A DNA stretch of 64,000 bases from Spirosoma profusum (GTDB lineage Bacteria; Bacteroidota; Bacteroidia; Cytophagales; Spirosomataceae). Every line of letters starts with the position of its first letter. The first letter of the stretch is position 1. Position numbers and translations under genes: made by a program. Positions 5,067-64,000 of the stretch are shown here, piece after piece. The notes under the pieces are model-generated. The model was given only the letters and a program-made list of their open reading frames with translations. It was not told the origin of the DNA and made no database searches. The stretch is from positions 62,001-126,000 of the forward strand of contig NZ_JACWZY010000020.1 in NCBI RefSeq assembly GCF_014699005.1. Reading direction: 5' to 3'.

Positions 5067-5276
5067 ACAACTATAAGCTTGTGTTTTAATAGGCTACATT
5101 GTGCCTGATACATTTCTATCAATAGTTGCCCAGATGCTACATACTTATTGATTTGCTGAGTCAGTGCTTTCTTACGTTCGCGTCGTTTGCTTCTTCATTT
5201 TCGCCCAAATAGTTCTGATTCGTCAGGTAGACTAATCACTACTTGGATTGGATGACGGACGTAGTATCAAGAATAC

Positions 5277-6734
5277 CTATTTCTCTACTTTAAAAACCCA
5301 GGCTGGTTGCGTGGTTAACCACTGCCGGGCCTGTTCGGGTAACGTAACAAGTATTTCCGTCGGCGACGTAGTGATTTTGAGCACTTTGGCGTAACCCAGC
5401 AGTTTTACCGTCGGTTTTCTGGCCGTCGATACGTTGTTCAGGGTGATGGTTGTCGGGGGAATTTCCTGCTCAGCGGGCAGATACGTATGATACGTAGCAC
5501 GTTCGGTACCCATATACGCCCACTTTTCCTGCCGATATGGTGCAACGGGTTTGGTATCGTAAATAGATTCGCCGTTAATACGTAGCCAGGCACCTATTTC
5601 CTGTAATCGCCCATACGCTTCGGAATGCCATTCTCCATCGGGACCAGGGGCGATGTTCAGTAGCAGATTTCCGTTTTTAGCCACGATGTCGACCAAGGTA
5701 TGAATCAGCTTTCGGGCCGATTTAAAATTCTCTTTCGGAATGTACGACCACGAATCACCCATAGTCATGCATGACTCCCACGGAATGGGCATATACGTAT
5801 CGGGGATAGATTGTTCGGGCGTTACGTAATTTTCAAACTCACCCGTTACGGTGCGGTCCACAACCAGTAATCCAGGCTGATTACTACGTCCCATCTGGGC
5901 AATACGGGCCATGTCGATGTCCTGATCGTAGGGAATGGTACGTTGCCAGCTAATGGTGGAGTCGATGGTGCTGGCCGGACGTACCCAGCCGCCATCCAGC
6001 CAGAGAATGTCGATTTTTCCATAGTCGGTCATCAACTCCTGAATCTGGTTGAACGTGAAATCTTTAAACTGCTGCCATTTCTGCGGATATTTCTTTGGCG
6101 CATACGATACGTTCCGATCTTTGGGCGGGAAATACGGGTCCCAGTAAGACGGTACGTGCCAGTCGGGTTTGGAAAAATACGCCCCCACCATAAAATTCTG
6201 ATTTCGGAAGGCTGTGAACACTTCCTTTGCTACGTTGCTACGTGGATTTTTAGAAAAAGGCGTCTTAGCATCGGTGATTTTATAATCGGTTTGTTTGGTA
6301 TCGAACATGCAGAAACCATCGTGGTGCTTGGTCGTAAACACTACGTATTTCATGCCCGCATCTTTGGCGGCTGTTGCCCAGCGTTCGGGGTTGAATTTGG
6401 TTGGATTGAAGGTCGTCTGGAGGTTTTCATACGCTCGTTTGTACTCGTACCAATTGGACGCATACGGTCCCCGACGAACACACCAGCCCTCATCTTCAGG
6501 ACATAACGACCAGGATTCGACGATACCCCACTCGCTATAGGTACCCCAGTGCATCAGCAAGCCAAATTTGATATTCTGCCATTGAGCCAGCTTCTGACGT
6601 ACCAGACTGTCTTTAGGTACTACGTAGTGTGCGTGGTTTTGTTCGGAATGCTGCTGAGCCATCAGCGCACCCGGCAGAAATGACAGAATAAAGGCTAAAC
6701 TGTGGCGGAACTTTCGGAAATAGTTGTTCTTCAT
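5277..6734 (-). CDS. alpha-L-fucosidase, GH29, exported
   Basis: Retaining glycosidase releasing L-fucose from glycans. A signal peptide spans about residues 1-26, ending after ALMA, so it acts in the periplasm or on the surface. GH29 features are clear: MHWGTYSEWG (61-70), WYEYKRAY near 95-102, FTTKHHDGFCMFDT (133-146), and ILWLDGGW with the predicted nucleophile Asp247. A short beta-rich C-terminal domain follows. The length of 485 residues fits a two-domain GH29 enzyme. It lies beside a GH18 chitinase and, across the island, the same-strand FHS transporter, consistent with fucosylated glycan use. The strand is the same for transporter, fucosidase and chitinase. Confidence 0.93.
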   Translation of the reverse strand: MKNNYFRKFRHSLAFILSFLPGALMAQQHSEQNHAHYVVPKDSLVRQKLAQWQNIKFGLLMHWGTYSEWGIVESWSLCPEDEGWCVRRGPYASNWYEYKRAYENLQTTFNPTKFNPERWATAAKDAGMKYVVFTTKHHDGFCMFDTKQTDYKITDAKTPFSKNPRSNVAKEVFTAFRNQNFMVGAYFSKPDWHVPSYWDPYFPPKDRNVSYAPKKYPQKWQQFKDFTFNQIQELMTDYGKIDILWLDGGWVRPASTIDSTISWQRTIPYDQDIDMARIAQMGRSNQPGLLVVDRTVTGEFENYVTPEQSIPDTYMPIPWESCMTMGDSWSYIPKENFKSARKLIHTLVDIVAKNGNLLLNIAPGPDGEWHSEAYGRLQEIGAWLRINGESIYDTKPVAPYRQEKWAYMGTERATYHTYLPAEQEIPPTTITLNNVSTARKPTVKLLGYAKVLKITTSPTEILVTLPEQARQWLTTQPAWVFKVEK

Positions 6735-6767
6735 GGTGCTACGTCCTTGTTAATTAACGTATTGCTG

Positions 6768-6860
6768 ACGCATAGGGGTTCGACAGGCTCAGCCTGACAG
6801 ACTACTTAACGTTGTGAATTAATCTGCTTGTCAGGCTGAGCCTGTCGAAGCCCTATGCGT
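6768..6860. repeat. large inverted repeat, 32-nt arms (dispersed intergenic type)
   Basis: Arms at 6768-6799 and 6829-6860 are reverse complements with one mismatch, around a 29-nt spacer. Each arm contains the core TTCGACAGGCTCAGCC, itself partly palindromic (AGGCTGAGCCT). Similar sequences are known as dispersed intergenic repeats in many bacteria. It sits between the chitinase and fucosidase genes and could fold in RNA to end or stabilise the transcript. Confidence 0.85.
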
Positions 6861-6922
6861 TTTCATTATACTGTAAATCAGTTAGTTAATTTATATTTAT
6901 CCTTAACTTATATTAAGTATTA

Positions 6923-8083
6923 TTACTGCTCTAATCCATTGACCAGTTTATCAAGAAGCACTGGTTGATGAAGGTCATAAATATATTCCCAGAACATCAC
7001 CCCGGCTAAACCTTTCTGTTTTACGTAGGCCAGTTTTGGTTCAAATGATTCAGGATCAGCATAGGAAATAAACGTGCGCGAATCTGGATTCCAGAGATAC
7101 GGTGCTTTGGCATCGGCGTCCCAATAGCGAACGAAGCCATTTTTGTTGATGTATTTCGCCACTAATTCGTCGTAACTGATGAAAAGATGCTTCCCAGTTG
7201 CTGGCTGATAGAGGCCATTGTCAACGGGACGCACGTTGGTCCAGCCACGCCCATAAAACGGAAGACCTAGTACAATTTTTTCGGCGGGAACGCCCACCCG
7301 AATATGCCCGTCCACCGCCGACATCGAGCTGTTACGTGACTGGTTCCCTTTTTTCGACTGCGCCAGCGGACTATGATGGCCAGTCACTTTATCGTTGCCG
7401 TGGTAAAGATCGTAGGTCATAATATTGACGTAATCGAGGTAGCGTTGCGCTTCGCCCAGATTGGTATGGTTCACAAAAGCGGTATCGCCACCGGTAGCGG
7501 CCGTAAGCAGGTAATGATTGATGCCCGTACGCTTGTCCTGTTGGCCTTGTTTGTCTAATTGGTCGCGAATGGCTTTCAGAAACAAGGTAAAATTCTCTTT
7601 GTCTTCAGGGCGGAAGATATTGCCAGCCCCAATCTGACCTGGGTATTCCCAGTCGATATCGACGCCGTCGAGATGATGTTTTTTCAAAAATGCAACCGCA
7701 CTATTTGCAAATTTCAGACGGGAATCGTTTGTCAAAGCCGCATCGGAAAAATATTTGCAGCCACCCCAGCCTCCTACCGAAATAAGCACTTTCAGGTCTT
7801 TATTGATCGCTCTGAGCGATGTTAACGCCACCAGATTAGCGGAGTCTTTGGTGGTAATGCGGGCCAGCACACCGTTCTGAGCAGGAACTGCAAAAGCGTA
7901 GTTAATGTGCGTAAGTTTATTCGGATCGATTTGAGATTTTTTCCAGCCGTTCCCACTCACATACCCAATTAGTACGCTACGTTTGGGTGGTACTGGCGTT
8001 AAATTCGTTAGCCCGATGAAAGCGAGTAAGCCAATCAGCAACGTAACGGTTGCGGTGAACAAGGGAATCCGTTTATATTTCAC
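6923..8083 (-). CDS. chitinase, glycoside hydrolase family 18, membrane-anchored or exported
   Basis: Endo-acting hydrolase of chitin or related N-acetylglucosamine polymers. The N-terminus has a hydrophobic helix (about 8-26) acting as signal peptide or anchor. The GH18 barrel shows LISVGGWGG (100-108) and the catalytic DGVDIDWEYP (139-148), with the proton donor Glu146; IMTYDLYHG and a late MFWEY strand are also typical. Length 386 covers the catalytic domain only, with no separate chitin-binding module. It follows the inverted repeat upstream of the fucosidase and is read in the same direction, but the repeat in the 188-nt gap makes a shared transcript uncertain. Confidence 0.93.
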   Translation of the reverse strand: MKYKRIPLFTATVTLLIGLLAFIGLTNLTPVPPKRSVLIGYVSGNGWKKSQIDPNKLTHINYAFAVPAQNGVLARITTKDSANLVALTSLRAINKDLKVLISVGGWGGCKYFSDAALTNDSRLKFANSAVAFLKKHHLDGVDIDWEYPGQIGAGNIFRPEDKENFTLFLKAIRDQLDKQGQQDKRTGINHYLLTAATGGDTAFVNHTNLGEAQRYLDYVNIMTYDLYHGNDKVTGHHSPLAQSKKGNQSRNSSMSAVDGHIRVGVPAEKIVLGLPFYGRGWTNVRPVDNGLYQPATGKHLFISYDELVAKYINKNGFVRYWDADAKAPYLWNPDSRTFISYADPESFEPKLAYVKQKGLAGVMFWEYIYDLHQPVLLDKLVNGLEQ

Positions 8084-8179
8084 AGTTCTTTCTTTTACGT
8101 TGCAAAGAACAAAAATATCAGTAATTTAAAAATTTTACGAACTAATCATTCTTTCGAAAATTTATTACAGAATTTATTT

Positions 8180-8578
8180 ATGGAAATATCGGCAACTGTA
8201 AGAAACACGTATCAGTACCACAGTGTGGTGGTGGCGACCAACGACGATTCAAAAGCGGTTCAGATTGCATCCAAAGCGTCGGGCTATGGTTCGTCGGTTA
8301 ATGGGGGCGAGTTGCTGCTAATGGCCTTGGCTACCTGCTTCTGTAACGATATTTATCGGGAAGCCGCCAAACGTAACATCGCTATTTCGGAAGTCGAGGT
8401 AGTATGTACGGGTGAGTTTGGGGCAGAAGGTGAGCCAGGCCGAAATTTTCGCTATAAAGCCAACGTCATTGCCGACGCTTCTGTTGAAGATATAGAAGCC
8501 TTAATAAATTATACGGATGGCGTTGCCGAAATACACAATACGTTACGACAAGGTCTATCTGTTACGTTGACGAACTAA
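8180..8578 (+). CDS. OsmC/Ohr-family protein
   Basis: Small cytosolic protein of the OsmC fold, whose members reduce organic hydroperoxides through two cysteines. The family core NGGELLLMALATCFCNDI lies at about residues 41-58 with Cys53 and Cys55 in place of the usual single helix cysteine. The second conserved cysteine of Ohr/OsmC is less obvious; VVCTGEFG near 75 is a candidate. Length 132 is normal. It is transcribed divergently from the chitinase with 96 nt between starts. Its last codons form one arm of a perfect palindrome. Peroxidase activity is inferred from family only. Confidence 0.8.
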   Translation: MEISATVRNTYQYHSVVVATNDDSKAVQIASKASGYGSSVNGGELLLMALATCFCNDIYREAAKRNIAISEVEVVCTGEFGAEGEPGRNFRYKANVIADASVEDIEALINYTDGVAEIHNTLRQGLSVTLTN

Positions 8579-8600
8579 CGTAACAGATAGACCTTGTCGT
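8545..8600 (+). terminator. perfect 24-bp palindrome overlapping the osmC-like 3' end
   Basis: Arms 8545-8568 and 8577-8600 are exact reverse complements around an 8-nt loop. The stop codon TAA (8576-8578) lies at the loop/right-arm junction, so the left arm is coding and the right arm is its mirror copy. There is no T-tract after it. A role in transcript ending or 3' protection is plausible; it also lies between convergent genes. Confidence 0.75.
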
Positions 8601-8655
8601 TGAACAGCAATTCTGTCAAACGCTAAAACAATCTCTTTGTATAGAAATGCTACGT

Positions 8656-9696
8656 CTAGCTTAGGATATTCCGGCAATAGTTTACGCATTTTTTCACCTC
8701 GGCAACTGACGTAGAACCTTCTGGCACCTTATATTCAAGTTCGACCGAGGCCGGGAACGTGTATTTCTGTTCACTCATCAGTTTCAACACTTCCTTGAGT
8801 GGCGTATCACCTTGCCCCCAGGGTAGGTTTCCTTTGCCGTTTGCGGGCCCCTGCCGGTCTTTGATGTGCATGCTGGAAATGCGGTCGTGCTTCTGTTTAA
8901 TCAGCCCAATTGGATCGGGTTGGCCAGCGGCTATGTAGTGTCCCAAATCGAAGTTCATGGCGTTTCCTGGTGACTGTGATAAAGCGGTATCCCAGAAGGT
9001 CGGTGTTTGTTGCTCGTGGCCGTGATACCCAACCCGAATCCCGTGTTTTTCGGCCATTTTGCCAAGTTTGAGGGTGTGCGCGTCATTGGCCGGATGTTCG
9101 ACAGTAACCTGGTTGGCACCCAACGTTTTAGCAGCCTGCATACCGTAATTGATATCTGCGTCGGAACTATTTACTCCAAAGGCGTCGGGCTTGAAACCGT
9201 AAATGGTTACGCCGGCCTGATTATACATCTTACGGAGCTGCTCGAACTTGGCCATTGATGCCGATGTGCGCCATTTTGTCATCTCTTGGCGATACGCTTT
9301 CGTCTGGGCTTCCATTTCAGCAAGCTTTTTCTGTTCGTCTTCAGTCAGAGGCTGGTTTTCGCGTCGCTTTCTCATGAGCGGAAACATGGTCTGCATATTG
9401 ACCGAATTTTTAGGAGCACCTGCAAAGGTTTCAGCCGGGCCGCCCATGAGTTCTATGGCGCTGATACCGCTATCCAGAATGTATTGCAGGGTTGCTTCGG
9501 CGCTCTGGTCGGGCATATCCCGAAACGAGTACGTAATGACGCCAATCTGAACGCCTTTCAGCAACGAATTAGGTTTATCACCCAGACTGCGGATGATAGC
9601 GGGAGCGCCAAAAAGTTTGCTGTTATTGGCAACAATTCCCGAAACAAGTAAGGCCGTAGTTCCTAAAAACTGACGACGTGATGGCTGGTTTCCCAT
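8656..9696 (-). CDS. Tat-exported sugar phosphate isomerase/epimerase-like TIM-barrel protein
   Basis: Member of the xylose isomerase-like TIM barrel (AP endonuclease 2) superfamily; in Bacteroidota such exported proteins are tied to oxidised sugar or inositol metabolism. The N-terminus MGNQPSRRQFLGTTALL carries a twin-arginine motif followed by a hydrophobic stretch, so it should leave the cytoplasm folded. Barrel features include GVQIGVITYSFRDMP, VTVEHPAND, GIRVGYHGHEQ, NFDLGHYIAAG and MHIKDRQG, with the His/Glu/Asp ligands of a divalent metal. Length 346. It runs the same way as the DUF1080 gene upstream, 108 nt away, and the pair recurs in this phylum. Exact substrate unknown. Confidence 0.85.
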   Translation of the reverse strand: MGNQPSRRQFLGTTALLVSGIVANNSKLFGAPAIIRSLGDKPNSLLKGVQIGVITYSFRDMPDQSAEATLQYILDSGISAIELMGGPAETFAGAPKNSVNMQTMFPLMRKRRENQPLTEDEQKKLAEMEAQTKAYRQEMTKWRTSASMAKFEQLRKMYNQAGVTIYGFKPDAFGVNSSDADINYGMQAAKTLGANQVTVEHPANDAHTLKLGKMAEKHGIRVGYHGHEQQTPTFWDTALSQSPGNAMNFDLGHYIAAGQPDPIGLIKQKHDRISSMHIKDRQGPANGKGNLPWGQGDTPLKEVLKLMSEQKYTFPASVELEYKVPEGSTSVAEVKKCVNYCRNILS

Positions 9697-9804
9697 GGAT
9701 TAAAGAAGTTAAAAAAGGTTTATGAACAATGTTTAATGAACAATGTTTAATGATCAATGTATAATAAATACTGAGAATTCATTACCTGATTTTCCCAGTT
9801 ATCA

Positions 9805-10545
9805 TTATCCATTCTTCACTTTAATATTTCGGAACCAGACGCTGGTGTTCCAATCCTGTAAGCCAATTCGCCCAACAAATTTACCGTTTGCAAACGATAT
9901 GCCTTTTTGCGATTTAGCAGCCACACGCTTTTTCCAGTCAGCACTAGTTACGTCGTGCTCCTGTACTACGTAGCCATTAATTGTAACTGTCAACTTATTC
10001 TTTTTCAGCGAAACATCTACTTTGTTCCAGCTTCCTAGTGGTTGCGGTTCCTGAATACGAACGTCGGCAATGCCAAACAGGTCACCGGAGCTATGCGGAT
10101 GTTCTACTTCTTTCTGATATAAAGCATCATCCCCGACTTGAACCTCAAGGGCGGTGCTATAAATTTTCTCATTCTTTGGCGATTCTTCTACAAAGAAAAA
10201 GAATCCGCTATTGGTGTACTTTTCGATTTTGAATTCGGCCTTAAACTCAAAATCACCCGAAAAAACGGCATCGGTCGCGATATCACCAGCATCGCGGGGG
10301 GTAGCGCCAGCCGTTTTGGGAACGTCCAGATGAAGCACACCCTGTTCGACTTTCCAGGACGAGGGGGTGCCCTTACCGTTGTATTTGTGCCATCCGGACA
10401 GATCGCGCCCGTTAAACAGAAGTTTCCAACCCTCTTTTTTCTCCTGAGCAGATAACGTATTGAGTTGTTGCGCATGAAGTCCTGCCCCAGTAAGGCAAAC
10501 AAGTAGACCAAGGGTAAATCGGTTGATAGACATGAAGTTTGGCAT
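9805..10545 (-). CDS. DUF1080 (3-keto-disaccharide hydrolase-like) exported protein
   Basis: Concanavalin-like beta-sandwich protein of the DUF1080 family, some members of which cleave 3-keto-glycosides. A signal peptide covers about residues 5-25 (MSINRFTLGLLVCLTG...LHA). The domain begins at KEGWKLLFNGRDLSGWHKYN and includes SWKVEQGVLHL, GDFEFKAEFKI, NSGFFFFVEE and a closing RIGLQDWNTSVWFRNIKVK, all usual for the family. Met5 is as likely a start as Met1. It precedes the TIM-barrel gene in the same direction. Together they suggest periplasmic handling of oxidised sugars. Confidence 0.88.
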   Translation of the reverse strand: MPNFMSINRFTLGLLVCLTGAGLHAQQLNTLSAQEKKEGWKLLFNGRDLSGWHKYNGKGTPSSWKVEQGVLHLDVPKTAGATPRDAGDIATDAVFSGDFEFKAEFKIEKYTNSGFFFFVEESPKNEKIYSTALEVQVGDDALYQKEVEHPHSSGDLFGIADVRIQEPQPLGSWNKVDVSLKKNKLTVTINGYVVQEHDVTSADWKKRVAAKSQKGISFANGKFVGRIGLQDWNTSVWFRNIKVKNG

Positions 10546-11118: not shown

Positions 11119-11141
11119 AGCCGCGCTCATGGGTATACGCT

Positions 11142-15050: not shown

Positions 15051-15064
15051 GTGTTCATAGCTGA

Positions 15065-25200: not shown

Positions 25201-27611
25201 CAGAATTTAAAATTATAGGTCAGCGACGGGAAAGCCGTTCCAAAAATTGAAAGTTTATACGCATCAGCCAGCGACGCCGGACTCAGTTTATAAAAAATTG
25301 AGTAGGCATTTTTGTGAGCGTACACGTTATAAACCGAGAATACCCAACTGCTCTGGTTTCGTTTTTTCTTGAGCGGATTCTGTTCAAACGTCATCGAAAA
25401 ATCGAGTCGATGATAATCCGGAACCCGCTGCTGATTTCGGTCGAGGTAAATCGGAATACGTATCCCTCCTATTCGGGCAATAGCCGACGGCTGCGTGGTT
25501 GGCCGGCCGGTGCTATACGTAAAATTCAGCGACAGGCTAAACCAGGTAGTCGGCCGGTACGTCGCCAGAATGTTCATCGTATGCGGTTTATCATAGTTGG
25601 CCGGGTACGGGTTTCCGTTATTGACACGTTCATCGGCATACGGACTCGTCATGGTTAGGAACGTTCGGGCGAAGGTGTAACTCACAAAACCAGTCCACCG
25701 ACCTTTGTTTTTACGGAACAATCCCTCAAAACCATACGCCTGCCCGCTTCCCTGAACAATCTGGGTTTCAACCGTCTGAGCCAATTGCAATTCAGCTCCA
25801 TCCCGGTAATCAATGGCATTGGTAAGGGTTTTATAATACACTTCACCCGACGCTTCGATATCATTATTGGCCGTATTCCGGAAATAACCCAGCGCCCACT
25901 GGTCGGCAATAACGGGTTTGGTATACGTATCGCTCAGGTGCCAGCGCGAGGTGGGCAAAGCTGCTGTAGTATTCGTAACCTGCTGAATATATTGGCGTAA
26001 TCGACTATAGCCGGCCTTCACCGACTGTCCTTCTCCCAACGACCAACGTATCGCCAGGCGAGGCTCCAGTCCACCCATCGAGTTATAAATCTTACCGGCG
26101 TCGTAGGTTTTTGTCGATACCACCGTTTCGTCCTGCTTGGGCGAATTTTCGGAATAAGAACGTACTGTAGCCGGTCCACGATTCAACAGGGCTGAATAAC
26201 GTAATCCAGCGATAACCGCTACGTTCGCATTCACTTTCCACTCGTCCTGCACGTAAGCCGCCAGTTCGTAAGCACGTTCACGAGCCAGATCAATCGGCAG
26301 TACATTCGAAATAGGGCCGGGAATGCGGGTATTGGGCTGAACGTAGTAATCGATAAAACTCAACCCGGCCTGCCACTGATGTGTTTCGCTGGGCGTAAAC
26401 GTCAGGTCAGTTTTAAGCTGCCGATGCCAGACCGCCGACTTCAGGTTAAACGCATTCGCTGAATCGGGCGACGACAAATCGGCCTGATATTGACTCAAAA
26501 CAGCTGCCGTAGCCAGATTCAACGTCTTGCTCATGAAGTAGTTCCAACGGAACGAAGCAGTTGTGGTCTGGTAATTGAACTGCGTCGATGAAGCATTTAT
26601 TTCCTGCCCTGAAAGTGAATCTGATGCCAGTTTAAAAACATCGGTGCTACGGTAGCCAGTAAACGTAATGGTATGCTTTTCGTTAGGCTGATATTTCAGT
26701 TTAGTCGTTACGTCGTAAAAGTTTGCTTTCGTATCTTTCAGGTTGGGTGGGGCCAGCGTAAACAAAAAATCATTGAACGAAACGCGGGCAGCCGCCAGAA
26801 ACGACAGCTTATTTTTGATAATTGGTCCTTCAACACCCAACCGGCTCGAAATGATGCCAATACCGCCGTTAACACCCCATTTCTGCGCATCGGGTTCTTT
26901 GATTTTCACATCCAGTACCGACGAAGCCCGCCCCCCAAAAGCAGGAGAAACACCCCCACGATTCAGTGTTACGTCGCGTACTACGTCAGGATTGAATACC
27001 GAAAAGAAGCCCATCAGGTGGCTCGAATTGAAGACAGGTGCATCATCGAACAGAATCAGGTTCTGGTCGGCACTACCCCCCCGAACGTTGAATCCCGGCG
27101 CGCCTTCACCAACCGTAGTAACACCGGGCAGTAATAACAGACTACGAACAATGTCGATTTCGCCCATCAGGGGCGGAATGCGTCGAATGCTACGTATCGT
27201 TAGCTGCGACACGCCGATTTCAACTTTCTTTACGTTCCGGTCGGGTGCTTCGCTGGTGACGATAACCTCTTCCAGGTCTTTCGAGTCATCTTCCATCACA
27301 ATTTCCCGAAAAAGCGTTTTCTGGAGAGAAATAGTATCCTGGCGGGGGCGGTAACCAACGTGCGTGAACCGCAGAATATAATCGCCGGGCTGGAGTTGTA
27401 TTACATAAAAACCGTCTTTCGCCGTTACGTATCCTTTCGATACGTTTAGCACGACAATATTAACGCCCTGGATAGGTTTGCCGGTTTTAGCATCCCGAAC
27501 ATAACCCGTTGCCGAGAACGTATTAACAGACGTTTTCGGCTTGGTTACCGGTTGAGTTTTCCCTTCGTTGAGTAAGCAAATCGACAAAAGCAGTACACAC
27601 AATAAACGCAT
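25200..27611 (-). CDS. TonB-dependent receptor with carboxypeptidase-like N-terminal domain
   Basis: Outer membrane active transporter, 803 residues. Signal peptide at 1-19; a CarboxypepD_reg-like beta domain at about 30-110 (ATGYVRDAKTGKPIQGVNIVVLN); then the plug with VRSLLLLPGVTTVGEGAPGFNVRGGSADQNL; then the 22-strand barrel ending in SLTYNFKF, with the usual terminal Phe. It lacks a SusD partner, so it is not a classic glycan SusCD pair; instead it is coupled to a DUF4249 lipoprotein. Ligand unknown, possibly a siderophore, peptide or sugar. TACGT pentamers are dense in this gene (24 by hand count). Confidence 0.93.
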   Translation of the reverse strand: MRLLCVLLLSICLLNEGKTQPVTKPKTSVNTFSATGYVRDAKTGKPIQGVNIVVLNVSKGYVTAKDGFYVIQLQPGDYILRFTHVGYRPRQDTISLQKTLFREIVMEDDSKDLEEVIVTSEAPDRNVKKVEIGVSQLTIRSIRRIPPLMGEIDIVRSLLLLPGVTTVGEGAPGFNVRGGSADQNLILFDDAPVFNSSHLMGFFSVFNPDVVRDVTLNRGGVSPAFGGRASSVLDVKIKEPDAQKWGVNGGIGIISSRLGVEGPIIKNKLSFLAAARVSFNDFLFTLAPPNLKDTKANFYDVTTKLKYQPNEKHTITFTGYRSTDVFKLASDSLSGQEINASSTQFNYQTTTASFRWNYFMSKTLNLATAAVLSQYQADLSSPDSANAFNLKSAVWHRQLKTDLTFTPSETHQWQAGLSFIDYYVQPNTRIPGPISNVLPIDLARERAYELAAYVQDEWKVNANVAVIAGLRYSALLNRGPATVRSYSENSPKQDETVVSTKTYDAGKIYNSMGGLEPRLAIRWSLGEGQSVKAGYSRLRQYIQQVTNTTAALPTSRWHLSDTYTKPVIADQWALGYFRNTANNDIEASGEVYYKTLTNAIDYRDGAELQLAQTVETQIVQGSGQAYGFEGLFRKNKGRWTGFVSYTFARTFLTMTSPYADERVNNGNPYPANYDKPHTMNILATYRPTTWFSLSLNFTYSTGRPTTQPSAIARIGGIRIPIYLDRNQQRVPDYHRLDFSMTFEQNPLKKKRNQSSWVFSVYNVYAHKNAYSIFYKLSPASLADAYKLSIFGTAFPSLTYNFKF

Positions 27612-27802
27612 AGAAACGGGTTTAGGAAGCCGCCGGAAATTGTCAAGTAAAGGAAAATATGTTGGGTAGCTTTAGACCAAAGCCAGACCGCTCATCAACA
27701 TACTGATTCGTTACGGATTCGGACCAAATGCCCTATTATTAAACGTGCTACGTTATTTAATTTACCCTACTCAGCAGACCATTTACCAACAATTACTGCC
27801 TT

Positions 27803-29539
27803 TCAACTTGCTGTACGCAACCGTTCCCGCCGTTGTTGCAGAAACGTTGTCATTTCCTCGAGCGTCAACGTATTGAATGTCATGGCTTTTGTAAGGCCGC
27901 CTTTACGTCCGATGGCAACGCCGTAATGCATATCGAGCAGGCCAGCCAGGTCGTGGGCGTCGGGGTTTATGCTTAGTTTAACGCCCTGCTGCATAGCGTA
28001 ATCAATCCAGCGCCAGTCAATGTCGAGTCGATAGGGGCTGGCGTTGATTTCAATCACTACGTTGTGTTCGGCACAGGCATCGATAATGGCGCGATGATCG
28101 ATGGGGTAACCTTCACGCGCCAGCAACAACCGCCCCGTTGGGTGCCCCAGAATGGTTGTGTATGGATTTTCGATGGCACGTAGTAAACGCGTCGTCGCCT
28201 TTTCGAGCGACATGGTTAGCGTTTGGTGAACCGACGCCACTACGTAGTCGAAAGTAGCCAACGTAGCGTCGTCGTAATCCAGCGAACCATCGCCCAGAAT
28301 GTCAGATTCGATACCTTTGAAAATGCGGAACGTAGTACCGAAACCTTCGTTTAGTTTATCAATTTCAACCTGCTGTTGCTGAACCCGTTCTACGTCAAGG
28401 CCATTGGCATACGTAGCGGTTTTCGAGTGGTCGGCAATACCGAAATACGTAAGCCCCAATTCCTGGCAATAAGCAGCCATATCAGCAACCGATTGTTTAC
28501 CATCCGACCACGTACTGTGGTTATGCAACGTACCGCGCAAATCATTCCAGGTAACCAGCTCATCGGTCTGGTGACGGCTGGCCCAGCGAAACGCGAAATC
28601 GTCTTCACGCATTTCCGGTACGATATATGGCAAACCAGCCCGCGCGTAAATGGCCTGTTCTACGTCCTCAGTTGCTCCTTCAGCCAGTTCAGAAACAACA
28701 CTCGTATAGGCAACCTCCAATAACGACGCTCCGCCGTTGCCTACCTGTTGCAAATGCGGTTCGGCCGCCGTTTGAATAAACAGTTGTCGGTTCATTTGCT
28801 CAGCCGGATAAAGTCGTAACTCCACCTCAACGTCGAAATTCATAAACCGGCCTCGCCAGATAAAGGGCGATGATTCGGCCTCGTTTTGCGTCAACGTTGG
28901 CAAGTTATTCAGATTGAGCATGGCCGATAGCGGGTCACTGGTTTGCACGAGCAGTTGTATCCTATCGACCTCCTGCGCCTTCCGACGCACCTGACCGCTA
29001 ATCTCAACCCGGTCGAAATGCTTGGCGAGTTCTTCCTGTAGCAGGTTGGCAATCATGGCAGCCTTATCCATGCGGACTTTACCCTGCTGTTCCTGCAAAA
29101 ACTCCAGCGCTGCCAGAATTTTCTCCTGTGTACTTCCACCAAATCCCTTGATTTTGGCAATTTCACCATTTTCGCCCGCCCGTTGCAGTTCCCCAAGATT
29201 ATCGATACCCAGCTCGCGCCAGAGCGTTCGTATTTTCTTGACGCCCAGCCCTTTAATCCGAAACATATCCAGTACACCTTCGGGCGTTTGTGCCAGCAAT
29301 TCATCGAGTTCGGTCAGGCGACCGGTGTCGGCAATCTCGCGGATTTTCTGTGCTACGGATTTTCCAACACCCTGTAATTTAATCAGTTCCTCAACCGGCA
29401 GATTGGCTAAATCAGCCGTTGATTTATCCAGATTAAAGGCAGCTGTCTGATAGGAACGGGTTTTAAAAGCGTCTCGGTCGTGGAGTTCCATCAGACGACC
29501 CGTCAGTTCGAGCAGGTCAACAATTTCGGTGTTGGTCAT
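27803..29539 (-). CDS. polX: PolX-like protein: HhH and PHP domains, degraded polymerase site
   Basis: 578 residues arranged as bacterial PolX: helix-hairpin-helix domain (about 1-100, LQGVGKSVAQKIREIA), nucleotidyltransferase-like middle, C-terminal PHP domain (about 330-578). The PHP metal site looks complete: TLHNHSTWSDG (His339, His341), IADHSKTA, GIESDIL, ILGHPTGRLL, INPDAHD, so 3'-5' exonuclease or phosphodiesterase activity is likely. The polymerase metal motif is not: the usual G-S-x-R-R...D-x-D reads SGQVRR...VDRIQ, so the second Asp is missing, and the third Asp is Glu240 (VELR). DNA synthesis is therefore doubtful. A base-excision repair role is inferred from family. Confidence 0.85.
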   Translation of the reverse strand: MTNTEIVDLLELTGRLMELHDRDAFKTRSYQTAAFNLDKSTADLANLPVEELIKLQGVGKSVAQKIREIADTGRLTELDELLAQTPEGVLDMFRIKGLGVKKIRTLWRELGIDNLGELQRAGENGEIAKIKGFGGSTQEKILAALEFLQEQQGKVRMDKAAMIANLLQEELAKHFDRVEISGQVRRKAQEVDRIQLLVQTSDPLSAMLNLNNLPTLTQNEAESSPFIWRGRFMNFDVEVELRLYPAEQMNRQLFIQTAAEPHLQQVGNGGASLLEVAYTSVVSELAEGATEDVEQAIYARAGLPYIVPEMREDDFAFRWASRHQTDELVTWNDLRGTLHNHSTWSDGKQSVADMAAYCQELGLTYFGIADHSKTATYANGLDVERVQQQQVEIDKLNEGFGTTFRIFKGIESDILGDGSLDYDDATLATFDYVVASVHQTLTMSLEKATTRLLRAIENPYTTILGHPTGRLLLAREGYPIDHRAIIDACAEHNVVIEINASPYRLDIDWRWIDYAMQQGVKLSINPDAHDLAGLLDMHYGVAIGRKGGLTKAMTFNTLTLEEMTTFLQQRRERLRTAS

Positions 29540-48043: not shown

Positions 48044-49291
48044 GTGAAAGATAAACGCATTCTTCTTGGGGTTACTGGAAGCATTTCGGCGTATAAATCA
48101 GCTCTGCTCGCTCGTCTGCTAGTGAAAGCTGGGGCTGAGGTGCAGGTAATTATGACCGAATCAGCTAAAGCGTTCATAACACCATTAACGCTAACTACTT
48201 TATCGAAGCGGCCGGTACTGTCTTCGTTTGTGGCTTCTGAAAAGGAGGGGATCTGGAATAATCACGTTGAATTGGGTTTGTGGGCCGACGTAATGCTGAT
48301 TGCTCCGGCATCGGCTCATACGCTCGCTCGCTGCGCAACGGGCTTCTGCGATGACTTGCTTTCGGCCGTTTATTTGTCGGCACGTTGCCCCGTTTTCTTT
48401 GCTCCGGCTATGGACGTCGATATGTATCGACACCCAACGACAGTTCAGAATTTGCGTCAGTTGACTACGTTTGGCAACCATATTATTGAAGCAGAGCATG
48501 GTGAATTGGCCAGTGGACTGATTGGCGAAGGCCGTTTAGCCGAGCCCGAAACCATTGTGCAGGCGATACGTGATTTCTGGGAAAAATCGGACGTAATAAA
48601 GGCAAATCCTGATCATAAGCCTTCTACTACGTTAACAGCTCTTCACGAAAAAAATGTACTGATTACAGCAGGGCCAACTCAGGAAGCCATTGATCCGGTA
48701 CGTTACATCAGCAACCATTCTACTGGAAAAATGGGCTATGCCATCGCACGGGCTTTTGTACAGGCGGGAGCCAACGTAACACTGGTAAGTGGTCCAACCC
48801 ACTTGTCCCTCCCCGACCCGACCGTTCAACGTATCGACGTGCGGTCAGCGCAGGAAATGTTTGAGGCTACGCAGGCTCAATTTGCGCAGGCCGACGTAGT
48901 AGTATTGAGTGCGGCTGTTGCCGATTATACGCCCACCCACCCAGCAGATCGGAAAATTAAAAAAAAGGAATCCATTTTTTCACTGGAGTTAACTAAAACA
49001 ACCGACATTGCCGCTACGTTAGGAAAACAGAAACAACCCGGGCAATTGATGATGGGGTTTGCACTGGAAACCGATAACGAACAGGCCAACGCGCTGAAGA
49101 AATTGCACGCTAAAAATTTAGACTGGATTGTCTTAAATTCACTGCGTGATCCAGGAGCGGGTTTCGGGCACAATACCAATAAAATTACCGTTATTGATAA
49201 AGACGAACAAACCCACGAATTTGCACTGAAATCGAAAGACGAAGTGGCACAGGATTTGGTCGAACTGGTAGCGAAAAAACTTGCCGTATGA
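48044..49291 (+). CDS. coaBC: bifunctional phosphopantothenoylcysteine decarboxylase/phosphopantothenate-cysteine ligase CoaBC
   Basis: Two steps of coenzyme A synthesis. N-terminal flavin decarboxylase half (about 1-180): ILLGVTGSISAYKSALLARLL, active His in WNNHVELGLWADVMLIAPASAHTLA, and PAMDVDMY. C-terminal ligase half: VLITAGPTQEAIDPVRYISNHSTGKMGYAIA and VVLSAAVADYTP, then a KKxxK-like loop RKIKKKES. Length 415. Start is GTG at 48044. DUF4835 overlaps the stop by 4 nt (ATGA). coaX lies elsewhere in the window. Confidence 0.95.
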   Translation: MKDKRILLGVTGSISAYKSALLARLLVKAGAEVQVIMTESAKAFITPLTLTTLSKRPVLSSFVASEKEGIWNNHVELGLWADVMLIAPASAHTLARCATGFCDDLLSAVYLSARCPVFFAPAMDVDMYRHPTTVQNLRQLTTFGNHIIEAEHGELASGLIGEGRLAEPETIVQAIRDFWEKSDVIKANPDHKPSTTLTALHEKNVLITAGPTQEAIDPVRYISNHSTGKMGYAIARAFVQAGANVTLVSGPTHLSLPDPTVQRIDVRSAQEMFEATQAQFAQADVVVLSAAVADYTPTHPADRKIKKKESIFSLELTKTTDIAATLGKQKQPGQLMMGFALETDNEQANALKKLHAKNLDWIVLNSLRDPGAGFGHNTNKITVIDKDEQTHEFALKSKDEVAQDLVELVAKKLAV

Positions 49292-54239: not shown

Positions 54240-54252
54240 TATGTATTACTGT

Positions 54253-59163: not shown

Positions 59164-59187
59164 TACATCTAGATTATACCTCTAACT

Positions 59188-59225: not shown

Positions 59226-59391
59226 AATCGGGAATTAATAGCGCCGGTAACACGAATGCGTTGATTTGCGACTGAACGATGCTTAACTCCGTCAGGATGA
59301 GCCCATTTTGCTATTGGGGTGACTTGATAAAGATCGTTACGTTCAGTTATTCATTCCATTCACTACGTACCAGGCCTATTACGATCTTTTC

Positions 59392-60405
59392 ATGAAAAAT
59401 TTTCTGGCGGGCATTTTCCTGCTTCCTCTCCCCTGTCTGGCACAGGATATCAAAGCGTATCAGAATTACGATTTCGTGGCCGGCGACAAAATTATTTTCG
59501 CCGACGACCTGGCCGATTCTCCGCCAGGCGAATTTGATCCGCACTGGAAGTTAATTGAAGGTCAGGCCGTTGTTAATAAAGTGAGCGATGAGAAAGCCTT
59601 TTTCATTACTAAATACTACACCAAATTGGCTCCCCGTGTGAAAACGCCAGCCTATTTGCCCAAAAACTTTACACTTGAGTTCGACAGTTACCTCGATGCG
59701 GCCTACGACAGCAACGAAGGCATTTACATTCAGTTTTTGAATGACACGGAACCCGTCGTGAACATTAGATCGAACCGCGATTATTCCGTGTTTGATGGCC
59801 CTGATACTAAACTGAATGGCGAATATCCTAAAGCGATTGCCGCCGAAAATTACTTCAATAAGTGGCATCACTACGCCATTGCCGTGAAAGACAATCAGGT
59901 AAAAATTTACTGCGATCAGTACAGAGTGCTGGTCGTACCAGAAGTGATTTTCAAGGCCACTTCGCTGTTAGTAGGTGGTGATGCCAGCGATGGCAAGAAC
60001 ATGATGTTCCGCAATTTCAAACTAGCCGCCGGGGGCGATATGAATCTGATCGGGAAAGCCTTTACTGACGGAAAATACATTTCGCACGGCATTTTGTTCG
60101 ACGTGAATAAAGCTACGCTGAAACCCGAGTCGATGGGCGAAATCAACGCCATTGTGAACGTACTAACCGCCAACCCTAACCTGAAAGTTGATGTGAGCGG
60201 CCATACCGATGCGGATGGGGACGACGCCAGCAATCTAAAGCTTTCTGAAGCGCGAGCTAACACTGTTAAATCGCAGTTGGTGTCGATGGGCATAGAGGCT
60301 ACCCGACTCACTGCCAAGGGTTATGGAGAAACTAAACCCATTGCAGACAATGCTACGTTCGAAGGGAAAGCGCAGAACCGACGGGTTGAATTTGTGAAGC
60401 AATAA
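59392..60405 (+). CDS. OmpA-family protein with N-terminal concanavalin-like domain
   Basis: 337-residue exported protein. Signal peptide 1-18 (LPCLAQ). Residues about 40-220 form a laminin-G/concanavalin-like beta-sandwich (NFTLEFDSYLDAAYDSNEGIYIQFLND, WHHYAIAVKDNQVKIYCDQYRVLV). The C-terminal OmpA domain runs from FDVNKATLKPESMGEINAIV through VSGHTDADGDDASNLKLSEARANTVKSQL to AQNRRVEFVK and anchors to peptidoglycan. Likely a periplasmic or outer membrane protein tying the wall to the envelope. Single gene by spacing. Confidence 0.88.
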   Translation: MKNFLAGIFLLPLPCLAQDIKAYQNYDFVAGDKIIFADDLADSPPGEFDPHWKLIEGQAVVNKVSDEKAFFITKYYTKLAPRVKTPAYLPKNFTLEFDSYLDAAYDSNEGIYIQFLNDTEPVVNIRSNRDYSVFDGPDTKLNGEYPKAIAAENYFNKWHHYAIAVKDNQVKIYCDQYRVLVVPEVIFKATSLLVGGDASDGKNMMFRNFKLAAGGDMNLIGKAFTDGKYISHGILFDVNKATLKPESMGEINAIVNVLTANPNLKVDVSGHTDADGDDASNLKLSEARANTVKSQLVSMGIEATRLTAKGYGETKPIADNATFEGKAQNRRVEFVKQ

Positions 60406-60472
60406 TGTTCGGGTGAACCTAACTTGAATCTGACGTAGTAAGACCGTAACTTGCATAAAAGTCAGAAAAAGT

Positions 60473-61348
60473 ATGCGGGATTTAATTCAGTACGCCATTC
60501 CCGGCTTCATTATTTTGCTGGTTACCGAAGTAATTATTACGGCTAAGCAGCAGAAAGATTATTACGATGCCAAAGACACCGCCAGCAGTCTGGCTATGGG
60601 GATTGGCAACGTAATCATCGGGTTTGTCGGAAAGTTGATTGTTTTTGGGACGTATTCGCTGGTGTATAAATTTCGGCTGTTTACCATCGACATGGCTCAG
60701 TGGTGGGCGTGGGTAGCGTTGTTTTTTGCCGATGATATCAGTTATTATTGGTTTCACCGCATCAGCCACAGCAGTCGATATTTCTGGGCGTCGCACGTAG
60801 TGCATCACTCATCGATAAAGTACAATCTCGGCACGGCGCTACGTCAGACCTGGACGGGCAATATTTCAGGAGCGTTTGTTTTCTGGATTTGGCTACCCTT
60901 GATTGGCTTTTCGCCGGTGGCTGTCATGACCATGCAGTCGATCAGCCTCTTATACCAGTTCTGGATTCATACGGAACATATCAACAAATTTCCGGCTCCT
61001 ATCGAATTCATTTTCAATACGCCTTCACACCACCGAGTGCATCACGGCTCTGATCTGGATTATCTGGATAAAAATCACGCAGGTATACTCATCATCTGGG
61101 ATCGTCTTTTCGGTACGTTCCAGAACGAACATCAGCGGCCAACGTATGGTCTAACAACTAATATTAATACGTTTAATCCGGTACGTATCGCTTTTCACGA
61201 GTGGGCAGCCATCGGGCGCGATGTACGGCGGGCGCGATCGTTTGCTGCGGCCATCGGTTATATTTTCGGCCCGCCCGGCTGGAGTCATGACGGATCGCGC
61301 AAAACAACGAAGCAGCTACGTTCCGAACAGGCCACAGAATCCGTATAA
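60473..61348 (+). CDS. fatty acid hydroxylase/sterol desaturase superfamily protein
   Basis: Membrane di-iron oxygenase, 291 residues. Histidine boxes are complete: HRISH (about 96-100), HVVHHSS (109-115), and HHRVHHG (192-198), with HNxH-type histidines after HINKFP. Four hydrophobic segments surround them. Substrate could be a fatty acid or hopanoid-type lipid. The next small gene starts 1 nt after its stop, so they form a pair. Confidence 0.9.
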   Translation: MRDLIQYAIPGFIILLVTEVIITAKQQKDYYDAKDTASSLAMGIGNVIIGFVGKLIVFGTYSLVYKFRLFTIDMAQWWAWVALFFADDISYYWFHRISHSSRYFWASHVVHHSSIKYNLGTALRQTWTGNISGAFVFWIWLPLIGFSPVAVMTMQSISLLYQFWIHTEHINKFPAPIEFIFNTPSHHRVHHGSDLDYLDKNHAGILIIWDRLFGTFQNEHQRPTYGLTTNINTFNPVRIAFHEWAAIGRDVRRARSFAAAIGYIFGPPGWSHDGSRKTTKQLRSEQATESV

Positions 61349-61349
61349 G

Positions 61350-61553
61350 ATGAACAAGGCAATACGAACGCTGATTGGAATCAGCATGGTAATCGTCTGG
61401 CTAGCAACGTTTATAGTTACTTTCGGTTCCCCAAGTCTTCTCGGAAAAGCGTCTATTTTAGTGAGTGGTTTAATAGTCAACGTAGCGCTGGGCATCTGGC
61501 ACAGTTTCCTTACCACACGGGCAAGCAGTTTCCGCGATTGGATAAATAGGTAA
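61350..61553 (+). CDS. small two-helix membrane protein
   Basis: 67 residues, MNKAIRTLIGISMVIVWL followed by ATFIVTFGSP and a second helix ASILVSGLIVNVALGIWHSFL. The ATG at 61350 is one base past the desaturase stop, which decides the start; the longer open frame upstream overlaps the desaturase gene and has no merit. Likely co-translated with the desaturase-like enzyme and perhaps part of its membrane complex (inference). Confidence 0.65.
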   Translation: MNKAIRTLIGISMVIVWLATFIVTFGSPSLLGKASILVSGLIVNVALGIWHSFLTTRASSFRDWINR

Positions 61554-61603
61554 TCGATCAAAATTTCTAACCCAGCAGCCCCTTTTTCAGTTAGTAAGGC
61601 ATT

Positions 61604-62302
61604 ATGGTTGCTGCCTTCCTTATCGCCTGCAATTTGCTGGTTGCCAGCAATGATACGTTAACACCGGCCGATTCGGTACGTCTAAAACGGCCAAAATTGG
61701 CTCCGGCCTTCAATCTCGATTTTCGTGATTCATTTCTTGAGCGGCAACATGTCAACGTATGGGGCGTAAATGCCGGTATTCAGTTTGGGATTAAACGACA
61801 TCAAATTACGCTTGGGTATTACTGGATTAACTACGCTACGTATCTGCGCCTGATCGACTGGCGACGGGCGGCCTCCCGACGTATCAACCTCGATTATTAC
61901 ACCCGCTCCGATATGTGGTTTATGAGCCTGCTGTACTGGTTCAATATCACCAACAATCAAAAATGGCAAGTTAGTTTACCTGTCGAATTGGGCGGTGGAG
62001 TGGCTAATGCGATTCCGTTAAATCTCCGGGAAGAAACGCCAAGAGACCGCAACCGAAAGGATTTTTTTGTGCCATTACAAGCGGGAGCTTATGCGCAGTG
62101 GCGCGCTACCCGCTGGGTTGGACTTAGCGCGCAGGTAGGTTACCGACTCTCCGTTTTTCAGACGGCCATCGATCAAAACTTTAACGGCACCTATTACAGC
62201 ATAGGTATTACCATCTACCCGACCATAGCTATTGACCTCTGGCGCTGGATACGTAAAGGCGACCGGATTTCGCCCATTCACCCTCCGCAGCCTCGAAAGT
62301 AG
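61604..62302 (+). CDS. hypothetical outer membrane protein
   Basis: 232 residues beginning MVAAFLIACNLLVASND, a short signal peptide, then amphipathic strands rich in aromatic residues: HVNVWGVNAGIQFGIKRHQITLGYYWINY, WQVSLPVELGGGVAN, WVGLSAQVGYRLSV, TYYSIGITIYPTIAIDLWRW. The pattern fits a small beta-barrel of about eight strands. In-frame stops just before the ATG fix the start. Not a recognised characterised family. Convergent with a GNAT gene 8 nt away. Confidence 0.7.
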   Translation: MVAAFLIACNLLVASNDTLTPADSVRLKRPKLAPAFNLDFRDSFLERQHVNVWGVNAGIQFGIKRHQITLGYYWINYATYLRLIDWRRAASRRINLDYYTRSDMWFMSLLYWFNITNNQKWQVSLPVELGGGVANAIPLNLREETPRDRNRKDFFVPLQAGAYAQWRATRWVGLSAQVGYRLSVFQTAIDQNFNGTYYSIGITIYPTIAIDLWRWIRKGDRISPIHPPQPRK

Positions 62303-62310
62303 TCAACTCG

Positions 62311-62616
62311 CTAGAAATCATTGACAGAATGCGTAGTAGAAACCACTCTGTTCCAGTCGGGATGCCGTTTCAGGTAGGCCGCTACGAACGGACAGAGCGG
62401 CACAATTTTAATGTTGTGATCTTCAACGTAATGCAGTACGCCTTCCACCAGTTTCGATCCTACACCGCGACCTTCCAGGCTGGGGTCTACTTCGGTGTGC
62501 GTCAGAGCTAACGTATCGTCATCTACTTTGTGATAGGCAACAATGGATAGTTTGCCATCGGTTTCTAACTCGAAACGGTGTCGTTGTGGGTTGTGCTGAA
62601 TGCTGGAGGATTCCAT
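62311..62616 (-). CDS. GNAT-type small acetyltransferase (GCN5-like, YjdJ type)
   Basis: 101-residue protein of the compact GNAT subfamily: RFELETDGKLSIVAYHKVDDDTLALTHTEVDPSLEGRGVGSKLVEGVLHYVEDHNIKIVPLCPFVAAYLKRHPDW. The GRGVGS loop binds the acetyl-CoA pyrophosphate, and the closing LCPFVAAYLKRHP is the family signature. Acceptor unknown. It is read leftward between the barrel gene and the TolC terminator. Confidence 0.92.
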   Translation of the reverse strand: MESSSIQHNPQRHRFELETDGKLSIVAYHKVDDDTLALTHTEVDPSLEGRGVGSKLVEGVLHYVEDHNIKIVPLCPFVAAYLKRHPDWNRVVSTTHSVNDF

Positions 62617-62721
62617 TACGTTAGGATATTTGTTAATCTCACTACGTAAAAATGGGGCTGCTTGTTCAATTTAGACGTAGTAATTGGAAGAAAACCCTTT
62701 ATCGATTTGATTGGTAAACAC

Positions 62722-62757
62722 GAAAAACGCTTACTGTCATATCAGTAAGCGTTTTTC
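62722..62757 (-). terminator. rho-independent terminator of the TolC-family gene
   Basis: Arms GAAAAACGCTTACTG and CAGTAAGCGTTTTTC (15 bp, 62722-62736 and 62743-62757) around a 6-nt loop. Reading leftward it lies 25 nt past the TolC-family stop and ends in a T-run. Confidence 0.88.
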
Positions 62758-62781
62758 TGATAACAACGTAGCGTTCCGGAA

Positions 62782-64000
62782 TTATCTCCAGCCGCCACCT
62801 AATGCCCGGTACGTATTGACAACGGCGTTCAATTGTTGCATTCGCGTTTCAATAAGTTCCATTCTGGCATCCAATACGTCGCGCTGGGTCAGCAACACCT
62901 CCATGTAATCGGCTCGGGCCGAAGTGAATAGCTTGAGCGATATATTAGTAGACTGGGTGAGCGCCTGGACCTGGTTTGTTTTCATGACGTACTTTTTATC
63001 CAGGTTACCCATATTCGACAACTGATTGACCACTTCGATGTACGCCCGCAAGACAGTACGTTCGTAATCGTAAACGGCTTGTATTTGCTTGGCGCTGGCA
63101 CTTTTGTAGGTGGCCGAGATGGCATTTTTATTGACCAGCGGCCCAACTAAATCGCCTAATAACGACGCAAATAATGATTCGGGCAGGTTTGCCAGATAGA
63201 TTGGGTTGTAGGCCATCACGCCCAACTCGGCTGTAAGACGTAGTGAAGGGTAGAAATTGGCTCTTGCTACAGTCACATCGATCTTGGAAGCTTGCAGCCG
63301 CAATTCAGCTTGTCTGACATCCGGGCGATTCTCCAATAACTGTGTGGGCACACCAGGCTGAACTTTAGCCGGTGTCAACGTACCAAAATTCTGGGAATCA
63401 CGCTGTACGGGTTGTGGAAACCGTCCAACCAGAAAATTAATCCGGTTTTCCGTTTCGACAATCCGCTGCTGAATTTCGTATTGAAGACTTTGTGTTTTAT
63501 ATACTTCGGCCTCAAACCGACGTACCGCCAGTTCAGTTACCTTGGCCGCTTCCTTTTCCTGCTTGGTAATAGAAAGGGCATTGTTCAGGATGACAATGTT
63601 TTGCTGAATTATACTCAACTGATTATCAAGCGACATCAGTTCGTAATACGAATTGGCGATTTCGGAAACCAGGTTAGTAATCTGGAAGTTTCTCCCCTCA
63701 ACAGACGCCAGATAATTGAGAACAGCCGATTTCTTCGCATTACGCAGTTTGTGCCAAATATCAACTTCCCAGCTGGCAAAGGCCCCAAAGTACGTATTGG
63801 GTAAAACAGCGGGTGTTGCTTTGCCAGGTTTGATCTCCGATATTTCATCGCTCGCCCCCTTACTGGTGTAGCGGGACACTTTTTCAGCGCCAGCTCCACC
63901 GCCTAACGTAACAAACGGTTGGTATTCCCCTTGTCGGGCCAGCACTTCGTTACTGGCAAGTTGAATTTCCTGTAATGTAATATTTAGCTCCTGATTGTTA
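62782..64000 (-). CDS. TolC/NodT-type outer membrane efflux protein, N-terminus beyond window
   Basis: Outer membrane factor of a tripartite efflux pump. The frame stays open to base 64000, so the start lies outside; about 406 residues are present. Seen motifs: a helix start LNITLQEIQLASNEVLARQGEYQPFV, then LVSEIANSYYELMSLDNQLSIIQQNIVILNNAL, GVPTQLLENRPDVRQAELRLQASKIDVTVARANFYPSLRLTAELG (the repeat 2 signature) and TQRDVLDARMELIETRMQQLNAVVNTYRALGGGW at the end. Partner RND or ABC genes would be off the right edge. Confidence 0.92.
   Translation of the reverse strand, partial: NNQELNITLQEIQLASNEVLARQGEYQPFVTLGGGAGAEKVSRYTSKGASDEISEIKPGKATPAVLPNTYFGAFASWEVDIWHKLRNAKKSAVLNYLASVEGRNFQITNLVSEIANSYYELMSLDNQLSIIQQNIVILNNALSITKQEKEAAKVTELAVRRFEAEVYKTQSLQYEIQQRIVETENRINFLVGRFPQPVQRDSQNFGTLTPAKVQPGVPTQLLENRPDVRQAELRLQASKIDVTVARANFYPSLRLTAELGVMAYNPIYLANLPESLFASLLGDLVGPLVNKNAISATYKSASAKQIQAVYDYERTVLRAYIEVVNQLSNMGNLDKKYVMKTNQVQALTQSTNISLKLFTSARADYMEVLLTQRDVLDARMELIETRMQQLNAVVNTYRALGGGWR

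Follow-up and report, generated by a model that had tools for sequence, protein, structure and literature searches.

The highly iterated palindromes (HIPs) of cyanobacteria are, in the part of the literature drawn on here, palindromic, mostly GC-rich, paired with methyltransferases and patchily distributed between relatives, and the function of the best known, HIP1, is still termed a mystery (PMC4390886); HIP1 reaches 855 copies per Mb in a genome called Syn (PMC3497702). DNA uptake sequences (DUS) and uptake signal sequences (USS) are asymmetric words that occur on both strands at the order of one per kb and are lineage-specific (PMC2346458, PMC1939737), and a gradual pattern of mismatches has been reported for them (PMC1939737). 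Here we analyse a stretch of 64,000 nucleotides from Spirosoma profusum (the window), in which the pentamer TACGT and its reverse complement ACGTA are over-represented. The original prediction had taken the pentamer itself to be the unit; the real unit is a larger, asymmetric YRN-TACGT-H, with YRC-TACGT as its strongest form. HIP1 and uptake motifs had been proposed as parallels, and we judge these to be the right ones. No description of the motif in Spirosoma was found in the open full-text literature on the parallels and on Spirosoma, judged by titles and the openings of abstracts; in a literature search for the literal words, the matches listed contained only TGCTACGT, in unrelated work.

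Like the HIPs, the Spirosoma word is short, genome-wide, patchy between relatives and present at hundreds to thousands of copies per Mb (PMC4390886). With YRCTACGT at 1710 per Mb (7426 + 7506 over the whole 8.73-Mb genome) and TGCTACGT at 708 per Mb, it lies within the HIP class range of about 500-2500 per Mb. HIPs are described as palindromic and methyltransferase-paired (PMC4390886), whereas the Spirosoma word is asymmetric and no methyltransferase shared by its strong carriers was found. Some relatives without the HIP word carry an alternate one, whereas no comparable substitute was found in 20-120-kb samples of the five motif-free Spirosoma genomes G001, G004, G005, G006 and G023. With DUS and USS, as far as the consulted parts of the reports describe them, the word shares asymmetry, presence on both strands, a density of this order and lineage specificity. 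It differs from them in being equally dense in intergenic and coding DNA, in its unenriched core mismatches and in the lack of a consistent intragenic position bias such as the one towards gene ends in Pasteurellaceae.

The excess is plain in the window itself. Between positions 5200 and 64000, TACGT and ACGTA occur 222 + 222 times against 120 expected, and under a maximal-order model ACGTA/TACGT ranks first among 512 pentamers and ACGT first among 136 tetramers. Sites of the full word YRNTACGTH in this part number 274 (143 on the forward and 131 on the reverse strand), while 200 first-order simulations gave a mean of 22.4 and a maximum of 38. The dense piece 25201-29100 holds 20 + 21 = 41 pentamers where base composition predicts 7.6, and 1201-5100 holds 4 + 4 = 8 against 7.9; both totals reproduce the earlier counts exactly. 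Two intergenic sites had been cited as examples: 6737-6746 carries the sequence stated for it, while 8648-8656 reads TGCTACGTC and then T, that is GCTACGTCT and not GCTACGTCC. The features are:

1-5199, no strand: AT-rich (GC 0.35), motif-poor stretch with 4 YRNTACGTH and 0 YRCTACGT sites; class-V aminotransferase and an open reading frame (ORF) of the RelA/SpoT region
5200-64000, no strand: native stretch with iterated YRNTACGTH, 274 sites at 4.66 per kb, 118 of the strongest form YRCTACGT
25201-29100, no strand: dense stretch, 41 TACGT/ACGTA, 23 YRNTACGTH, 11 YRCTACGT
6737-6744, forward strand: intergenic strong site TGCTACGT between ORFs; 6737-6746 reads TGCTACGTCC
8648-8655, forward strand: intergenic strong site TGCTACGT between ORFs, at the edge of ORF 8656-9696
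48044-49291, forward strand: coaBC (DFP and Flavoprotein), marker for the tree and the orthologous loci

The same excess extends through the genome (G000; 8.73 Mb in 81 contigs), from which we sampled 20 stretches of 20 kb on 13 contigs, 400 kb in total. TACGT occurs there 2849 times on both strands, with an observed/expected ratio (O/E) of 3.77 under a first-order, 2.32 under a second-order and 1.40 under a third-order model. The pentamer exceeds the third-order expectation, with z 28, rather than lying near it. We infer that the third-order model understates the excess, because TACG and ACGT are themselves inflated. The top 8-mer by z under the first-order model is TGCTACGT (reverse complement ACGTAGCA), with 283 copies against 10.3 expected. 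Sites of the YRNTACGTH type are supplied at a mean of one per 206 bp of native DNA. The claimed spread through native DNA holds: 18 of the 20 stretches carry 6.5-8.7 TACGT per kb, and the word is scarce in island-like stretches, the other two having 2.8 (L007) and 2.4 (L019). Positions 1-5199 of the window are probably acquired DNA. Also motif-poor is the stretch with the sole C5 methyltransferase match of S. profusum, which lies beside an intact Vsr gene in DNA of GC 0.38 with 1.2 TACGT per kb.

Alignment of the sites reveals the flanks that make up the unit: Y at position -3 (0.77), R at -2 (0.83) and any base but G at +5 (0.90), and information outside -4 and +7 is at most 0.01 bit per position. 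Compared with motif-free congeners, YRNTACGTH is raised 10.9-fold in S. profusum and 6.9-fold in S. validum and S. terrae together, whereas TACGT in RRN, YYN and RYN contexts is raised only 1.6-2.2-fold. The best triplets before TACGT are TGC, CGC and CAC, with 708 vs 9, 468 vs 22 and 390 vs 6 per Mb in positive and negative DNA, the negative figures corresponding to 2-7 sites in 320 kb. A larger pooled negative set yields 4 TGCTACGT in 421 kb, about 8 kb of which were probably counted double, since two of its CoaBC loci are contained in others of its loci. Y/R at -3/-2 and H at +5 are each one-sided, so the motif as a whole lacks palindromic symmetry; a minority of sites have the palindromic form YRNTACGTANYR, which matches 188 times over both strands, compared with 1750 for YRNTACGTH. 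No favoured spacing to a second copy and no paired half-sites were found, indicating that the motif is a single unit. Site placement is slightly clumped rather than even (variance/mean 1.41).

Enrichment of the word is a property of the DNA and not of the codons. Gene calls were the longest ORFs of at least 120 aa, so that the intergenic fraction includes missed short genes. Upon synonymous codon shuffling in S. profusum, TACGT is enriched 1.6-, 4.1- and 4.2-fold in the three phases and ACGTA 1.6-, 3.3- and 3.6-fold, and intergenic TACGT has a first-order O/E of 3.1. S. validum, S. terrae, S. endophyticum and G003 give lower values of a similar shape, except that in S. endophyticum ACGTA in phase 0 reaches only 1.08 and the intergenic O/E only 1.3; the motif-free G023 and G001 stay at 0.5-1.4. 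YRCTACGT is as dense in coding (1.87 per kb) as in intergenic DNA (1.91 per kb). In S. profusum, CTA makes up 9% of Leu codons overall and 60% before CGT, while CGT makes up 28% of Arg codons overall and 84% after CTA; in motif-free species the corresponding changes are from 9 to 10% and from 19 to 18%. Ahead of CGT, the odds of CTA rise about 15-fold relative to the genome, which, read as selection, would correspond to a scaled strength near 2.7. Frequencies of the 27 dipeptides examined are 0.82-1.29 times those of motif-free species, therefore pressure acts mainly on synonymous and non-coding sites. Some dipeptides outside this set are shifted more, CT to 1.62 (67 vs 33) and WW to 0.44 (24 vs 30). 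Coding density is all that would speak for an artefact of codon or dipeptide usage, and with every phase and the intergenic DNA enriched and the motif-relevant dipeptides nearly level, we reject this explanation as extremely improbable. The original prediction had placed enrichment in all codon phases, which the shuffling bears out, and had proposed selection or mutation bias at the DNA level. The DNA level stands, but a mutation bias working in one simple step is unlikely, since the loss seen in any one-base donor word is too small to supply a tenfold excess.

The donor words were compared in context, against motif-free DNA. One-mismatch donors at A, C, G and the last T occur at 0.72-1.32 times in S. 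profusum and 0.70-1.41 times in S. validum and S. terrae, and only the first-T mismatches AACGT and GACGT are raised (1.5-2.8-fold). For the YRC form, mismatches at A, C, G and the last T range over 0.45-1.75 in three species (lowest 0.45-0.47), with CAACGT and CGACGT at 1.9-2.6. Changes in the flanks are graded, whereas core mismatches, apart from the first T (up to 2.8-fold), are not enriched. The T-for-C donor is not strongly depleted either: TATGT in context is at 0.94 in S. profusum and 0.70 in S. validum and S. terrae, and CTATGT is at 1.46, 1.36 and 0.78 in S. profusum, S. validum and S. terrae (15, 7 and 4 sites). A mutational channel from word to word must deplete its donor. The word itself is up 7-11-fold and the best 8-mer about 50-75-fold over motif-free DNA (the latter against only 4 and 3 negative sites), and the donors are at most mildly depleted; therefore the force probably acts on the whole word, be it through selection, through drive or by protecting the word from loss. 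As the sole cause, Vsr or any other single-base conversion is rejected, as no donor word is strongly depleted.

The motif is patchy and not a general Spirosoma trait. Of the 35 congeners compared (the CoaBC protein of the window is closest to Spirosoma), three carry the motif as clearly, namely S. validum BT704 (G008), S. terrae KCTC 52035 (G029) and S. endophyticum DSM 26130 (G031), three carry it more weakly, and most are at background. A survey of YRCTACGT in 222 genomes of the family, as forward count over a reversed-word control, gave ratios of 16.6 for S. profusum, 10.5 for S. terrae, 8.1 for S. validum and 7.8 for S. endophyticum, followed by G003 (4.9), G033 (4.8), G224 (4.1), G007 (4.1) and G052 (3.8). 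These nine exceed 3.5; G002, G266 and G058 lie at 2.1-2.3 and the rest below 2. The motif logo is the same in S. validum, S. terrae and S. endophyticum and weaker in G003 and G007; in a pooled Fibrisoma sample, including G052 and G224 (two species of one genus, presumed Fibrisoma), its YR part is faint. Among 392 Bacteroidota genomes drawn evenly from a larger group, only S. profusum exceeds 3-fold and the next, G100, reaches 2.05. In G100, G083 and G115, from one genus of the same order, GCTACGT stands at 1.7-3.7 and YRCTACGT at 1.4-2.05 times the reversed control, which may reflect unrelated codon effects.

On the single-gene CoaBC tree the positive species are scattered and cluster no more than shuffled labels: 10 positive rows of 44 need 8 changes, and 103 of 500 label shuffles are as low. 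This pattern could arise from an old motif with repeated loss or from repeated gain, and we read it as the former. Sharing of sites at identical dipeptides in aligned orthologues exceeds control words in all 6 pairs of positive species (odds ratio 3.6-8.8 vs 1.5-3.7), and in another comparison, S. validum and S. terrae shared sites with the window above controls whichever sequence was taken as the starting point.

The word is a motif of double-stranded DNA that shows no marked bias towards a gene strand, a codon phase, or coding over non-coding DNA, and it is rare in island-like stretches. The evidence speaks against codon use, against Vsr-type repair and against a common methylase; it speaks for a fixation bias at the level of the motif, by selection or drive, through a DNA-recognition factor. 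We favour, tentatively and as an unproven reading, a drive through DNA uptake or recombination. New motif words would have a several-fold better chance than other words of being fixed or retained, owing to a factor that recognises their sequence and favours the DNA bearing it. Acting in uptake or recombination, the factor would let incoming kin DNA with the word replace resident DNA without it, and the outcome would be a molecular drive of the kind that has been suggested for uptake signal sequences. The ancestor of Spirosoma and Fibrisoma probably already had the factor, which would have been lost many times, with erosion of the words after its loss. Such a drive fits the asymmetry, the near strand neutrality, the scarcity in islands and the patchiness.

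Several observations weigh against this reading. Of 36 genus members, 34 have a ComEC domain (one of the matches is split over two frames, and the two genomes without a match are incomplete assemblies); the domain is equally present in motif-free species and does not discriminate. Core one-mismatch words are not enriched, which makes the spectrum sharper than that reported for uptake sequences (PMC1939737). An intragenic position bias is absent in S. validum and S. terrae (p 0.62), with a mild 3' rise in S. profusum (p 0.006), and the slight clumping of sites belongs here too. Nor is site sharing clean evidence of inheritance, as shared flanking codons can produce it. LacPavin/F. limi, a pair with one motif-free species, is also high (odds ratio 7.1 vs 1.2, 6 shared sites). 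Sharing from S. endophyticum to the window is above control, and from the window to S. endophyticum, at 20/109, below the control of 0.22. Between Fibrisoma montanum and F. limi, in which the motif is weak, TACGT is conserved at 58/102 with controls at 0.50-0.52, and there the force looks absent.

On a HIP1-like basis, a methyltransferase would read the word, and its mark, used in mismatch repair linked to methylation or otherwise, would generate and preserve the word. This is the main rival to the uptake or recombination drive, though we consider it rather unlikely. It would suit the sharp, enzyme-like recognition of the core, the frequency of TGCTACGT, about that of HIP1 in Syn (PMC3497702), and the patchiness that HIPs also display (PMC4390886). 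Five methyltransferase families lend it no support in sequence. Across the four strong species, C5 enzymes occur in one, N6_N4 in two and D12 in one, a pattern by which these three are rejected as common cause; N6_Mtase and Eco57I match in all four and, with 34 and 33 of the 36 genomes having them, do not discriminate. No protein common to the four was found among 173 ORFs (at least 150 aa) in 21 stretches around methyltransferase genes at E 1e-20 over 150 aa, a comparison that excluded three weak matches of about 300 aa (S. validum, S. terrae, S. endophyticum) of a type also seen in many motif-free genomes. Many methyltransferase genes sit in motif-poor segments (exceptions are G029:C17 and C4), and the motif is not palindromic. 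Methylation remains the main rival because type I and IIG specificities are unreadable from sequence and the three weak matches fall outside the comparison.

If the word were where a chromosome-structuring (nucleoid) protein binds, and weak selection maintained each copy, this would account for the even supply in 18 of 20 stretches, the lack of clear strand bias and the similarity of coding and intergenic DNA. Nucleoid-structuring proteins are usually conserved, yet most congeners lack the motif, and the sites are slightly clumped; we regard this explanation as improbable. A context-dependent mutation or repair bias, whether T:G repair of the Vsr type or a shielding of the word from damage, could pile up the word without selection, much as the Vsr/Dcm signature of E. 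coli is a genome-wide word excess from a DNA-level process, although the Spirosoma motif differs in the size of its excess and in having no strongly depleted donor. Protection from loss would leave donors undepleted, as observed, the low of 0.70 for TATGT points the same way as repair, and Vsr matches are common in the genus (21/36). Single-channel repair, however, should strongly deplete its donor in the face of a 7-11-fold excess; moreover, the C5 enzyme and Vsr of S. profusum lie in a motif-poor segment, and Vsr was not found in S. endophyticum and is broken in S. validum and S. terrae, so that this bias is decidedly improbable. The broken matches lie near 10056-10265 of L276 and 10631-10844 of L277, and neither genome has a C5 methyltransferase match. 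Chi sites resemble the word in being asymmetric and over-represented in core DNA, and orientation correlates weakly with GC skew (rho 0.31, p 0.052), with weak heterogeneity between stretches (p 0.038). Known Chi densities are far below that of the Spirosoma word, and totals of 1388 vs 1481 over 40 stretches give no overall strand preference, which makes a Chi-like recombination signal very improbable.

A second word is nearly banned. CGCCGC and CGCCTC (CGCCKC, reverse complement GMGGCG) occur 0 and 0 times in the whole window. In S. profusum, 74 motif-rich 5-kb pieces hold 1 copy against 408 expected (first order), and 14 motif-poorer pieces 6 against 39, so that six of seven copies lie in motif-poor pieces; the pieces include three methyltransferase stretches. 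Over 224 de-duplicated Spirosoma loci (2.52 Mb) there are 81 copies against about 2100 expected (second order). Of these, 44 lie on three contigs of the fragmented assembly G033, for which contamination is likely; contigs C562 and C420 of G033 have GC 0.61-0.63, many copies and a contamination-like appearance. CGCCKC is low in all 20 Spirosoma species sampled: the highest O/E is 0.031 (G001, 4 vs 131), S. profusum has 7 vs 420, S. validum 1 vs 218, and the other 17 none, some samples being only 20 kb. Outside the genus, both Fibrisoma have 0 vs 37 each, G052 and G224 together 2 vs 175, Rudanella 0 vs 34 and G037 0 vs 10 (6 kb), while Fibrella, Fibrivirga, Telluribacter, Persicitalea and Dyadobacter lie at 0.78-1.19. 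The ban covers all phases, both strands and intergenic DNA; genes of the outgroups hold 125 copies against 126 expected in total, with deviations in single phases, and CGCCAC and CGCCCC are at roughly 0.6-1.1. It is separate from the iterated motif because motif-free Spirosoma also have it, and a conserved nuclease that works without a methylase may target CGCCKC. Among other words, CATATG is depleted: motif-free Spirosoma DNA has 118 copies in 421 kb, S. profusum 26 in 400 kb and S. validum 22 in 200 kb. The palindromes CTGCAG, CCCGGG and CTCGAG are low against Markov models in the 400-kb S. profusum sample and in the S. validum sample.

It is conceivable, though distinctly improbable, that self DNA is marked by sequence rather than chemistry, YRN-TACGT-H being read as own by a recognition factor, and CGCCKC, removed from native DNA across the clade while islands retain it, being forbidden as a possible target of a conserved nuclease. 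If true, an enriched word and a banned word would together make up a self/non-self system without modification. There is no settled account of how a genome acquires thousands of copies of a short word. Here the same word, non-palindromic and with no shared methyltransferase found, is strong in four species, weaker in several and at background in most congeners. Given this patchy distribution within one genus group, the driver should be findable by comparison of gene content and testable in cultured strains.

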